This document shows, piece after piece, positions 14,948-19,892 of a stretch of DNA of 64,000 nucleotides (position 1 is the stretch's first letter; the number at the start of each line of letters is the position of its first letter). This DNA comes from Gammaproteobacteria bacterium (GTDB taxonomy: Bacteria > Pseudomonadota > Gammaproteobacteria > RBG-16-57-12). Below the pieces are notes generated by a model. It had not been told where the DNA came from. It worked only from the letters and a program-made list of their open reading frames with translations, and did no database searches. A program made the translations under genes and the position numbers. The DNA lies in NCBI GenBank assembly GCA_021647245.1, contig JAKIVC010000002.1:1-64000 (forward strand). The letters are read 5' to 3'.

Positions 14948-14980
14948 AGTGGCCTGACAGGCCACTGTAAATTTACAGTG
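14948..14980. terminator. Convergent hairpins between DUF411 and tag
   Basis: Two overlapping palindromes sit between convergent genes. AGTGGCCT/AGGCCACT (14948-14955 with 14959-14966) has a 3-base loop, and CACTGTAAATTTACAGTG (14963-14980) is a perfect 18-bp palindrome extending into the last codons of tag. They could form alternative structures and terminate both directions. Confidence 0.55.
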
Positions 14981-15539
14981 CCACCACCTCAGAGTAGCGA
15001 AAGCATGAGGTTAAATGGTCATTCACCATGCCGACGGCTTGCATATAAGCGTAGCAAGTTGTTGGGCCAACAAACTTGAAACCCCTGCTCTTCAAATCTT
15101 TGCTCATTGCCTCGGAAGTCGGGGTATTAACCGGCACTTCTGACAGGTTACACCAAGCATTTTTTATTGGCCTTCCATCAACAAATGACCAGATGTAGCG
15201 GTCAAAAGAGCCATACTCATGCTGTATAGTTAAAAACAGTTTTGCATTTTCTATGGTTGCTTTGATTTTCAGCTTATGCCGGATAATGCCAGCATCCTGG
15301 AGCAATGCGGCTGCTTTTTCATCGGTATAGCGAGATATTTTTTCGGCATCAAAATTATCGAATGCTTTTCGATAGCCCTCCCGTTTTTTAAGAATGGTTG
15401 CCCAGCTCAACCCTGACTGCATACTTTCCAAAACCAACATTTCAAAAAGTAACCGATCATCGTGCACAGGAACCCCCCACTCCTCATCATGGTGCACTGT
15501 TTCCAGAGCGTTACCGTTTGCCCAATCGCATCGCTTCAT
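14973..15539 (-). CDS. tag: DNA-3-methyladenine glycosylase I
   Basis: About 188 residues. Removes 3-methyladenine from alkylated DNA. The zinc-snap ligands are in place: Cys4 (MKRC), His in the HHDEEWG region, and His and Cys in VNDHLTSC near the end. The catalytic-pocket segment DEEWGVPVHDD and the FVGPTTCYAYMQAVGMVNDH region are typical. The start MKRCDWANG is chosen because AAGGAG lies 9 bases upstream and it aligns with the family; the frame is open for 9 more codons. Confidence 0.95.
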   Translation of the reverse strand: MKRCDWANGNALETVHHDEEWGVPVHDDRLLFEMLVLESMQSGLSWATILKKREGYRKAFDNFDAEKISRYTDEKAAALLQDAGIIRHKLKIKATIENAKLFLTIQHEYGSFDRYIWSFVDGRPIKNAWCNLSEVPVNTPTSEAMSKDLKSRGFKFVGPTTCYAYMQAVGMVNDHLTSCFRYSEVVAL

Positions 15540-15565
15540 AAGCAGTCGCTCCTTATTAATGTACA

Positions 15566-15585
15566 AAGGTCTTCAGGAAGACCTT
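15566..15585. repeat. Inverted repeat in the tag leader
   Basis: AAGGTCTTC and GAAGACCTT form a perfect 9-bp inverted repeat with a 2-base centre, about 27 bases upstream of the tag start. It may be an operator or a leader hairpin. The remaining 180 bases up to the ATPase gene hold nothing I recognise. Confidence 0.4.
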
Positions 15586-15768
15586 GAAGAAGATAACCCT
15601 CTACTATAACCAATCCATCTCACCGGACAAATTAAGCTTAACCCACCTCGTTTAAGGTTGGACAGGCCAAAGCAGGCTGTACTAGCAAAGATAACACGAC
15701 TTTTAACTGCTATCGTCATACAATAAACCCAATGCAAAAACGCATCTCAATATTGATTATTAAAAACT

Positions 15769-16749
15769 GTGGCTAGTTCTGAGCAAATAAAAGCGCTATT
15801 ACTCTCGCATCTCGCAAAGGATGAGGAACGCTTCTTGTCTGTTGCTCTACAAATGGCAGCACACGAGGCTCGCAGCGGACACGGAAAACTCGCCAAAGAC
15901 CTGAGAGAGATCGTCGATAAAGCCAAAAAACAAACCAAATCCAGTCCACCTGTCCCAATATCCAAGGGATTAAAAGACTCGTCAGGGTTGCTATACGCGA
16001 CAACGCCCCACTTCCGGCTGACTGACCTCATCACCAAAAGTGATCTCACAGATAAGCTTGTTCGTGTCATTCGTGAACAGCGTCATATCAGTAAATTAAA
16101 AAATCACGGCCTATCACCCAGGCGCAAATTGTTGCTCATCGGGCCGCCAGGTACAGGGAAAACATTCACCGCATCGGTGCTAGCCTGTGAACTAGGCTAT
16201 CCGCTATTCCAAGTTAGGCTTGATGCCGTGATTACTAAATTCATGGGCGAATCATCGGCAAAACTTAGACAAGTCTTTGATGCCATTCGTGAGGTAAGAG
16301 GCATCTACTTTTTCGACGAGTTTGACGCGCTTGGTTCTCAGCGCACAACGCCCAATGACGTTGGCGAAGCAAGACGGATACTGAATAGTTTCTTACAGAT
16401 GATTGAACAAGATGACTCCAACAGCTTAATTATCTGCGCCACCAACCACGCTGAGATTTTGGATTACGCCTTATTCCGGCGTTTTGATGATGTCATCCAA
16501 TATCAACTACCCGAAAAGAGCGAGATTGTTATCTTACTCAAAAACAGACTTCAACCCTATGTCACAAAAAGATTTCCGTGGTCCAAACTCGCAACCCAAG
16601 CGACAGGATTGAGCAGCGCAGAAATCACCCTTGCTGCCGAAGATGCGATCAAGGAACTGCTTATTCACGAATACAAAACAATCAGCCCAAATATCATTGA
16701 ACTCGCCATTAATGACCGTCGTGAAATGAGCTATCAAAAACACCGATAA
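15769..16749 (+). CDS. AAA+ ATPase of an IetAS-like cassette (IetA-like)
   Basis: 326 residues from a GTG start. An N-terminal helical segment (1-80) is followed by an AAA+ domain with Walker A GPPGTGKT (125-132), Walker B IYFFDEFDAL (179-188), sensor 1 IICATN (221-226) and an arginine-finger region FRRF (236-239), all apparently intact. It is immediately followed, 9 bases on, by a subtilisin-like protease gene. This pairing is that of IetAS, first described as a Ti-plasmid stability/incompatibility toxin-antitoxin module in which the ATPase is the antitoxin, and later reported as antiphage. Assignment rests on gene pairing and domain content. Confidence 0.8.
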   Translation: MASSEQIKALLLSHLAKDEERFLSVALQMAAHEARSGHGKLAKDLREIVDKAKKQTKSSPPVPISKGLKDSSGLLYATTPHFRLTDLITKSDLTDKLVRVIREQRHISKLKNHGLSPRRKLLLIGPPGTGKTFTASVLACELGYPLFQVRLDAVITKFMGESSAKLRQVFDAIREVRGIYFFDEFDALGSQRTTPNDVGEARRILNSFLQMIEQDDSNSLIICATNHAEILDYALFRRFDDVIQYQLPEKSEIVILLKNRLQPYVTKRFPWSKLATQATGLSSAEITLAAEDAIKELLIHEYKTISPNIIELAINDRREMSYQKHR

Positions 16750-16758
16750 GGAGACAGG

Positions 16759-19257
16759 GTGACTGATCGAAAGGACGCGAAACCACATTTTTTTCTTGGC
16801 CGAACAGGCAAATCTGAGCCATACACTTCAGTCTCAACCGGGGGCGGTAAAAAACAGGCAATCCCTGAACAAAACCGACAACAACACGGCTTAGCTCTCC
16901 TTGGGCAACTTCAACAAATCCAAACTGATCAACAGGATCTCAAAACTGAAGCGTCAGATTATCCGCTAGAATCTGTAATCGGCATACAGATAGAGTTCGA
17001 AAGCTTTCCTGATATAGCACTTGCGGTTGAAAGCCTCGCCAATGAGACGCACAAAATTGAACTGTTAAATGTAACCCATCGTAACGATAAAACCTTCGCA
17101 ACTATTTTTGTGCCTGAAGGCAAACTGTCAGCTTTTGAAAAAAAGCTACGTGACTACCTTTCTGAGAAAAAGAATAAAAACGGCGGGGCTATCGATAATC
17201 GTCCGCTGATTGATGCCATACGGTCATTTAGAGTGGCTGCGCTAGAGGTCCTTTGGACAGATGACCTCGACCAACTTCCTGAAGACTTCGAACAGAGTTT
17301 TTGGTGGGAAGTATGGTTGCCAGTCCGAGGAAATAGGCAAGGTGTTCTCCATGACTTTACTTTGTTAGCAAGTGCTATAGGGATCGAGGTATCACCGCAA
17401 TCGCTGCGCTTCCCAGAAAGCTCCGTGTTACTTGCTAAAAGCAATCGCAGACAATTTTCACAAACCAGCTTGTTACTCAATAACATTTCAGAACTGCGTA
17501 GAGCAAAAGAGACTGCCGCTTTTTTTGATGAAATACCAGCCAATCAGCAGCATGAATGGACGGATGAACTACTAAGCCGTGCTTCATTTTCAAAGGCCAC
17601 GGATACAACGCCCTACGTATGTATTTTGGATACAGGTGTCAACATAGGGCATCCATTGCTAAACCCTGTGATTGGCCGTGAAGATCAATTTTCCCTTGAT
17701 GAAAATTGGACAGGCACGGATGATGATGGTCATGGAACCGGCTGTGCAGGTTTAGTTGCTTGGGGTGATTTAACCTCTGTGCTTGATAGCGATTCCATGA
17801 TTGAAATAGATCATCGTTTAGAGTCTGTAAAAACACTACGTCGCCACGGGGACAACGAAGGAAAGCACCTTGGCATCGTTACCGCCGATAGTATTTCCCT
17901 GCCTGAAATTGAAAACCCGTTTCGAACAAGAATTATCTCAATGGCGTTATCCGCGACGGATGCCAGAGACAGAGGCAGACCATCGGCTTGGTCTGCGGCA
18001 ATAGATAGTTTGTCAGCAGACTATCTGGGGGAGAGTGAAAAACCTCGTCTCATCGTGCTATCAGCAGGCAATGCCAGTAATAGCCTGACCGATATGATTA
18101 AGTACCCTGACTATAACGTATTGCAAGATGTGCATGACCCAGCTCAGGCATGGAACGCTATCACTGTTGGGGCATACACGGAAAAGGTAACGATAACTGA
18201 TGACGACTGCGCTGATTACACCGCACTTGCCCCTTTTGGTGGTCTATCTCCTTTTAGTACCACATCAACTACATGGGAAAAGTCCACGCCAATCAAACCT
18301 GAAATTATGTTTGAAGGAGGAAATGTAGGTATCGATCAACATAGCTGTGCATCCATTCCGAGCTTATGCCTGTTAACCACGCACAATGAGATTACGACAA
18401 GACTATTTTCCACTTTCCATGCAACAAGTGCGGCTACCGCGCTGGCCAGTCGGTTCGCGGCTGAAATATATGTTCAATACCCAAAGCTCTGGCCAGAAAC
18501 GGTTCGAGCGTTAATGGTTCATTCAGCACAATGGACTGATGCCATGTGTGAACAATTTTCACATGGGAGCACACCACGCCAACAAGCCCAACACCGTATT
18601 CGCTGCGTAGGGTTTGGCGTACCAAACTTAGACCGCGCGCTTTGGAACGCTAACAATTCACTCGCATTGGTCATAGAAGATCAGCTACAACCCTTCGATA
18701 AAATCAAAGGCAAGGCGGTTGCCACGAGAGATATGCACCTGCATGATCTGCCTTGGCCGAAGGAGTCACTTCTTGAGTTAGGCGAAACTCATGTAGAGAT
18801 GACAGTTACCCTCTCTTATTTCATCGAACCAAACCCATCCAGTCGTGGTGTAAAGGGTAAATATAGCTACCCCAGCCACAGCCTGAAATTCGATGTAAAA
18901 CGTGCTACTGAATCTGTGGATGACTTCAGAAAGCGTATTAACCGCCAAGCGCGAGATAAGGAGGAGGGTACGTCAGGCAAAACCACCGATCCTGATTGGC
19001 TTCTTGGATCGCAATTCCGACATAAAGGCTCAATCCATAAAGATGTATGGAGTGGTACCGCAGCAGATTTGGCCGAACGAGGAAAGATTGCCATATATCC
19101 CGCCATTGGTTGGTGGAAAACAAGAACAAAGCTGGCGCGCTATAATAAATCGGCACGATACGCATTGATTGTTTCCATATCAGTACCGGACGTGAAAACA
19201 GATATCTATAACGAAGTCTTTAACCTGCTAGAGATCGAGCAGCTTGTTGAAGTATAA
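16759..19257 (+). CDS. Subtilisin-like serine protease of an IetAS-like cassette (IetS-like)
   Basis: 832 residues from a GTG start; AAGGAG lies 5 bases before it, inside the end of the ATPase gene. There is no signal peptide, so the protease is probably cytoplasmic. The S8 catalytic triad is complete: Asp291 in CILDTGVN, His325 in DGHGTGCA and Ser557 in FHATSAATALA; the oxyanion Asn438 is in SAGNAS. An N-terminal region of about 280 residues and a C-terminal region of about 230 flank the protease core. The opening HFFLGRTGKSEPYTS resembles other ATPase-linked bacterial subtilases. The ATPase next door likely restrains or directs it; that is inferred from IetAS. Confidence 0.82.
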   Translation: MTDRKDAKPHFFLGRTGKSEPYTSVSTGGGKKQAIPEQNRQQHGLALLGQLQQIQTDQQDLKTEASDYPLESVIGIQIEFESFPDIALAVESLANETHKIELLNVTHRNDKTFATIFVPEGKLSAFEKKLRDYLSEKKNKNGGAIDNRPLIDAIRSFRVAALEVLWTDDLDQLPEDFEQSFWWEVWLPVRGNRQGVLHDFTLLASAIGIEVSPQSLRFPESSVLLAKSNRRQFSQTSLLLNNISELRRAKETAAFFDEIPANQQHEWTDELLSRASFSKATDTTPYVCILDTGVNIGHPLLNPVIGREDQFSLDENWTGTDDDGHGTGCAGLVAWGDLTSVLDSDSMIEIDHRLESVKTLRRHGDNEGKHLGIVTADSISLPEIENPFRTRIISMALSATDARDRGRPSAWSAAIDSLSADYLGESEKPRLIVLSAGNASNSLTDMIKYPDYNVLQDVHDPAQAWNAITVGAYTEKVTITDDDCADYTALAPFGGLSPFSTTSTTWEKSTPIKPEIMFEGGNVGIDQHSCASIPSLCLLTTHNEITTRLFSTFHATSAATALASRFAAEIYVQYPKLWPETVRALMVHSAQWTDAMCEQFSHGSTPRQQAQHRIRCVGFGVPNLDRALWNANNSLALVIEDQLQPFDKIKGKAVATRDMHLHDLPWPKESLLELGETHVEMTVTLSYFIEPNPSSRGVKGKYSYPSHSLKFDVKRATESVDDFRKRINRQARDKEEGTSGKTTDPDWLLGSQFRHKGSIHKDVWSGTAADLAERGKIAIYPAIGWWKTRTKLARYNKSARYALIVSISVPDVKTDIYNEVFNLLEIEQLVEV

Positions 19258-19892
19258 CGCTAACCGTTCAAATGACACATGAACTGCATTTTCTCCGTGC
19301 CAAAAACGAGTCGTCAACTCTAATGAAAAATTAACACTATTCCACCGTTGATTCCGAGGCCGTACAGGTGTTTACCTTATTCGCTAGGATACTCTCCAGC
19401 ATGTACCAATGAGTGGAAACAGGGTGTTTGTGAAAAGCTACGTATAAAGTGTTCTGATTGTTTCAATCACTCATCAAACCACCTTTGATCACTTGGCTGG
19501 AAATCACACCGTGGGTATCTGCCCCCTTCTGAGCGATGACAGTTGCTACTTTCTTGCCCAAATGTTCGATTGCGGCGCTGGCCCGTTAACTCATTCAAAA
19601 CGCTCTGTCAGTATCACTCAGCAAGCGCAGAGTATCACCACCAGAGATAACCCAGGTGTGATTAATCAACATAGTTGTAAAACACTTGTAGTGGTATTGT
19701 TGCGGGTAACTGCCTGCCTGAAAATCTTTAATATCCATCTTATGTTAGAAACCCCACCTGTATTCGATATATGGTGCGCTCTATGTCAAAACCTGCCGCC
19801 AAACACCTGCAAACACCTGTTATGTCATGTTAGCGGGTGGTTTCCGATATAAGCAGCACTCCTATGTCAGTTCTCATGGTCATTGCGGTTTT
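19258..19892. other. 635-base decayed stretch with a broken minus-strand frame
   Basis: No intact gene is visible. On the minus strand, about 19670-19600 reads TWVISGGDTLRLLSDTDRAF and then stops; about 19582-19465 reads ASAAIEHLGKKVATVIAQKG in another frame and ends in LMSD and a stop. These look like pieces of a degraded gene, but I do not recognise the family. It separates the protease cassette from the next leftward operon. Confidence 0.35.

Follow-up and report, generated by a model that had tools for sequence, protein, structure and literature searches.

A gene for an AAA+ ATPase and a gene for a cytoplasmic S8 subtilase stand next to each other near the chromosomal origin in the 64,000-nucleotide stretch of gammaproteobacterial DNA analyzed here (hereafter the window), where a sequence-only reading had taken them for IetAS, a plasmid-stability and anti-phage module. 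IetAS has been known as a plasmid-stability module since 2009, and its entry in the anti-phage catalogue came later. The locus raises the questions of whether the pair belongs to this family, how it came to occupy a chromosomal site, and what it may do there.

Identity of the gene pair

As had been described, both reading frames are intact; they lie on one strand with the ATPase gene first and a gap of 9 bp (Table 1). The ribosome-binding site of ietS, previously placed within the ATPase gene, does overlap the ietA stop codon but is inside the gene by two bases only, and this overlap makes translational coupling of the two genes likely. No clear ribosome site precedes the GTG start of ietA. 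The box upstream of this start is present in all three copies of the cassette (the window and the two metagenome-assembled genomes, MAGs, L033 and L034, discussed below); a promoter consensus scan did not list it, the -35 match being too weak, and we therefore propose a promoter here from conservation. Small helix-turn-helix regulator genes lie directly 5' of ietA in plasmids of Cupriavidus (L036:6682-8023) and Burkholderia (L037:6654-8020), and none was seen 5' of ietA in the window.

Table 1. Features of the ietA-ietS locus, in window coordinates.
Feature	Position	Strand	Remarks
tag (3-methyladenine glycosylase)	14973..15566	-	PF03352, E=4e-83; inside variable segment
Cassette left edge and probable promoter/leader	15682..15768	+	conserved ACGAC[T/A]-N17/18-TACAAT box, then GTG start
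ietA	15769..16749	+	AAA+ ATPase, 326 aa, GTG start; probable antitoxin/regulator
ietS ribosome-binding site	16748..16753	+	AAGGAG; overlaps ietA stop codon (16747-16749)
ietS	16759..19257	+	cytoplasmic S8 subtilase, 832 aa, GTG start; probable toxin/effector
TOTE-type archaeo-eukaryotic primase-helicase pseudogene	19272..19570	+	tblastn/blastn with intact L033 gene
Fic (SoFic) pseudogene	19561..19740	-	match to intact G002 gene (L025:10415-11551)

The ATPase matches the PADLOC IetA profile (E=8e-68) and the protease the PADLOC IetS profile (E=7.5e-36), with a catalytic domain (PF00082, E=9e-54) that covers residues 284-597 only. Compared over their full length with the founder pair, taken from pTiC58 (NC_003065.3), the window IetA is 50% identical (328 aligned positions, E=4e-109) and IetS 38% identical (853 columns, E=5e-172). 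This Agrobacterium pair (328 and 836 aa) has the same ATPase-protease order and catalytic residues, and it resides on the Ti plasmid, whereas the window pair is chromosomal and close to oriC. In a conservation set of 40 IetS and 39 IetA sequences, mostly from viral contigs, the catalytic triad (Asp291, His325, and Ser557, exactly where the sequence-only reading had located it) and the oxyanion-hole Asn438 are unchanged in 40/40 IetS homologues. The motifs of IetA are likewise intact, including Walker A (GPPGTGKT), Walker B (DEFD), sensor-1 Asn226, and Arg237/238, all invariant or near-invariant across the 39 homologues, and a pore loop (F158-M-G) whose aromatic-hydrophobic-Gly pattern (F/Y-M/L-G) is kept in every one of them. 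An IetA-homologous ATPase with Walker motifs and an IetS-homologous protease with its triad, encoded by adjacent genes in ATPase-first order, bear out the proposed assignment to IetAS.

The anti-phage label carries over by family only. The NCBIfam anti-phage equivalogs IteA and IteS (NF042959 and NF042956) share the two-gene architecture and the family with the window pair and represent a different branch: the pair scores 187.5 and 81.4 bits, missing the respective cut-offs of 510 and 900 bits by a wide margin. The pTiC58 pair misses them too, its IetA reaching 198.8 bits and its IetS giving no match to the IteS model at E<=1e-12, and a second IetAS pair in the source genome is also under the cut-offs. 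Since its scores lie so far below these thresholds, the window pair falls outside the NCBIfam anti-phage branch; judged by sequence, it is an IetAS member nearer to the plasmid-stability branch of pTiC58 and SGI1. The sgiAT genes (S026-S025) of SGI1 similarly combine an AAA-ATPase with a subtilisin, in the roles of antitoxin and toxin, and sgiA and sgiT are 50% and 36% identical to IetA and IetS (PMC5006074). In a tree of IetS, the window copy clusters with those of L033 (91%) and L034 (87%), next come the copies of genomes G251 (68%) and G241 (63%), and further out are plasmid copies (Cupriavidus, Burkholderia, and a conjugative plasmid of E. coli) and copies from viral contigs.

A mobile cassette at a variable chromosomal site

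The dnaA gene starts at ~30.6 kb and is followed by dnaN, recF, and gyrB, the GC-skew minimum falls at 32-33 kb, and the cassette lies 11-15 kb from this origin region, in keeping with the earlier estimate of about 15 kb. The sister genome G002 shares both flanks at 84-88% DNA identity, one with bioD and DUF411 and the other with the methyltransferase gene, ksgA, and pdxA. The segment enclosed by DUF411 and the methyltransferase gene differs: it contains tag, ietA, and ietS in the window, as against genes for an HNH nuclease and a Fic protein in G002. The same-genus genomes G001 and G002 have no copy of the pair, nor does the same-family genome G003; in G001 the DUF411 contig ends just past DUF411 and ksgA is found elsewhere, so that the site itself is compared with that of G002. 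The different gene content in G002, together with the absence of the pair from all three relatives, indicates from sequence comparison that the pair is an insertion, as the sequence-only reading had suspected, and that the site is variable within this genus. A core chromosomal protease system, which would be present at this locus in relatives, is ruled out by the same absence.

The flanking genes named earlier, tag and a spermidine-synthase-like gene, do border the pair, but tag is not a fixed core neighbor: it is located elsewhere in G001 (between acetylornithine-deacetylase-like and serB-like genes) and in G002, which has none at this site. The other flanking gene scores weakly, either as a SAM methyltransferase (PF05430) or as a spermine-synthase fold.

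The lack of other defence genes had been thought unusual, a point now weakened by the content of the sister site and by the second IetAS pair of the source genome. At the former, the SoFic and HNH endonuclease genes are intact (L025:10415-12394; SoFic model E=3e-116, HNH E=3e-77), and the locus provides a clear chromosomal example of IetAS, at a variable position occupied in a sister species by defence genes of other kinds. The second pair (L008, contig C39, 4659-8299, minus strand) has the same architecture as the window pair, with PDLC04232 and PDLC04233 as its best PADLOC models (IetS of 870 aa, 1084 bits with PDLC04233), yet the two are only 31% (IetA) and 23% (partial IetS) identical. Its neighbors are genes for a RhuM-Fic protein (PDC-S23) and an exonuclease of the DnaQ type.

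Close relatives of the cassette occur in L033 (Gammaproteobacteria MAG D100SM.bin.11) and L034 at 85-89% DNA identity, placing this 3.6-kb unit at three unrelated chromosomal sites. Homology to the window starts at 15682-15686 and stops just past ietS, and the surroundings are wholly different, with catalases in L033 and an aminotransferase in L034. The confinement of homology to this unit amid unlike surroundings indicates, at the sequence level, that the cassette has moved as a unit. No convincing terminal or direct repeats were found at its edges. In SGI1, the island that carries sgiAT is integrative and mobilizable and occupies the trmE 3' end; an SGI1-type island was considered here and ruled out, as the mnmE/trmE 3' end is ~7 kb from the window pair and no integrase was seen nearby.

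Both genes are under strong purifying selection, with dN/dS among the three copies of 0.05-0.07 for ietA and 0.08-0.11 for ietS. In the L034 copy (L034:1392-2378), codon 43 of ietA reads TAG in frame, beside an intact ietS; this may be an assembly error, given that L034 is a MAG, or the protease may be an orphan that its host tolerates.

In a sample of the class, 9/369 genomes carry IetS, and within the family no other genome does. Homologues were found in 474 plasmid records, 331 of which are typed conjugative, and in 47 IMG/VR contigs (L084-L130), where IetA lies immediately 5' of IetS at 43/43 loci with enough upstream DNA (IetS identity ~33-49%). A curated phage collection held IetS homologues in two records only, of 5 kb and 1.6 kb, and because of this disparity many of the IMG/VR contigs may be provirus-flank or contamination calls.

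Decayed neighbors and a possible third gene

The decayed DNA previously noted beyond the pair can now be identified as two abutting gene remnants. The first is a TOTE-type primase-helicase gene of which residues 1-12 and ~34-141 persist in three frames with stops, the remainder being lost. The gene is intact in L033 (784 aa, PF22548, E=2.6e-103), 14 bp past ietS, and reduced to its first 42 codons in L034. The second is a Fic remnant that retains codons 1-47 and 354-367, with the middle ~920 bp deleted.

The intact gene in L033, and the remnants that follow ietS in both the window and L034, could mean that IetA, IetS, and TOTE once formed a three-gene defence system, now crippled in the window. 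We consider this very improbable. No TOTE gene adjoins IetS at any of the 47 IMG/VR loci (0/47), beside IetS in G251, the next closest copy, or in the class sample, where TOTE occurs in 33/369 genomes and IetS in 9/369 and the two are never adjacent; in addition, IetAS has remained conserved after the loss of TOTE. A recurrent IetAS-TOTE system is rejected on the absence of adjacency in the 369 genomes and 47 viral contigs, and although TOTE is an intact third gene in the L033 cassette, it does not form part of IetAS across the wider family and, from these sequence comparisons, probably does not belong to the system. Three close cassettes in which the partner gene has decayed to differing degrees offer a natural test that two genes suffice.

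Other partners, named by eye, were seen elsewhere. In G358 (L135:3899-12757), a tight operon holds IetAS, with a gene for an adenine-methyltransferase-like protein of 1081 aa on one side and one for a RelE-UvrD-type helicase of 690 aa on the other, and in an Acidobacteria MAG (L035:3304-9786) the methyltransferase is cut to 179 aa and the helicase apparently truncated, with IetAS intact. The coupling of IetAS to larger systems appears to recur with differing partners, and IetAS appears to survive their decay. It is conceivable, if doubtful, that IetAS is a portable guard or effector module, repeatedly coupled to nucleic-acid conflict machines (the TOTE gene at this locus; an adenine methyltransferase with a RelE-UvrD helicase at the two loci just described), which outlives them because its toxin enforces retention.

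The same decay bears on a second alternative, in which the pair is a purely selfish addiction remnant that persists because its loss kills the cell and that has no present defence role. TOTE has decayed in two of the three copies and IetAS has stayed intact under selection, the pair in the Acidobacteria MAG is flanked by a shortened methyltransferase gene and an apparently truncated helicase gene, and among tested relatives those closest to the pair are stability modules. However, addiction and defence are compatible, members of the family have been reported as anti-phage, and one study of Pf phages associates IetAS with resistance (PMC11878078), and we regard a purely selfish role as quite unlikely.

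A restrained protease as the probable function

The observation made from the sequence is confirmed and its interpretation partly supported; what is new is that insertion has been demonstrated and the decayed debris identified, and the pair itself is an ordinary member of a known family. We think it probable that the cassette is a horizontally acquired, self-contained module in which IetS is a toxic protease held in check by IetA, acting in addiction or abortive infection. Free IetS, a cytoplasmic subtilase, would damage the cell, and IetA, translated just ahead of it, would restrain it. Were this balance lost, either because the genes are lost or because IetA is disturbed when a phage infects or a rival element arrives, the freed IetS would cleave cellular or invader proteins and growth would stop; the pair would in this way stabilize itself and could serve as an abortive defence. 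For the window pair, we infer the toxic and antitoxic roles, what sets IetS free, what it cleaves, and any activity against phages in this host.

This model is favored because the relatives that have been tested possess a toxic protease that is neutralized by its ATPase. S025 of SGI1 (36% identical to IetS) cuts transformation 100-1000-fold in E. coli and S026 rescues it (PMC5006074), and in the TA132/133 pair of M. mycoides the toxicity of T133 is neutralized by A132, again in E. coli (PMC8562856). The profile and founder matches, the invariant catalytic residues, the strict pairing, the low dN/dS beside a decayed TOTE gene, and the patchy spread are all consistent with a restrained protease. 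Against it, sgiAT under its own promoter gave no post-segregational killing (PMC5006074), and the stop codon in the L034 ietA beside an intact ietS disfavors a strict toxin-antitoxin pair, unless it reflects an assembly error or is bypassed by an internal start. Surveys list the anti-phage mechanism of IetAS as unknown (PMC9958689, PMC11878078).

The threading-type pore loop of IetA would fit an activating role as well. IetA is modelled by AlphaFold (mean pLDDT 83) as a three-helix N-terminal bundle followed by an AAA domain bearing this loop, and in model comparison its AAA fold is closest to those of PAN, the 26S ATPases, p97, FtsH, and Vps4. With strict gene pairing and a pore loop retained in 39/39 sequences, this resemblance fits an alternative in which the two proteins form an ATP-dependent protease machine, with IetA unfolding phage or plasmid proteins and feeding them to IetS as an activator and not an inhibitor. 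We regard this as unlikely, given the behavior of the tested relatives, in which the protease is toxic without its ATPase (PMC5006074, PMC8562856), and an IetS sequence and model that bear no sign of a ring-forming proteolytic chamber.

Outside its core, IetS has 282 N-terminal and 230 C-terminal residues, to which the sequence-only reading had drawn attention. Both regions are family-wide and not specific to this protein; neither gave a significant Pfam match. Mean conservation is the same, at 0.51-0.58, for the C-terminal blocks (635-790) and the catalytic core, and it is lower in the N-terminal blocks (0.24-0.45). Relatives of IetS by sequence in the PDB were subtilisins only, with no solved IetS among them. 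The AlphaFold model (mean pLDDT 85) has the Tk-SP pro-form as its top Foldseek match, and Vpr, Kex2, and furin rank high as well. Because the superposition on Tk-SP is poor (TMt 0.49, rmsd 23), we offer as a suggestion that the N-terminal domain may be propeptide-like and the C-terminal domain P-domain-like. The latter, unannotated yet conserved like the active site, is a target for work on IetA binding or substrate recognition.
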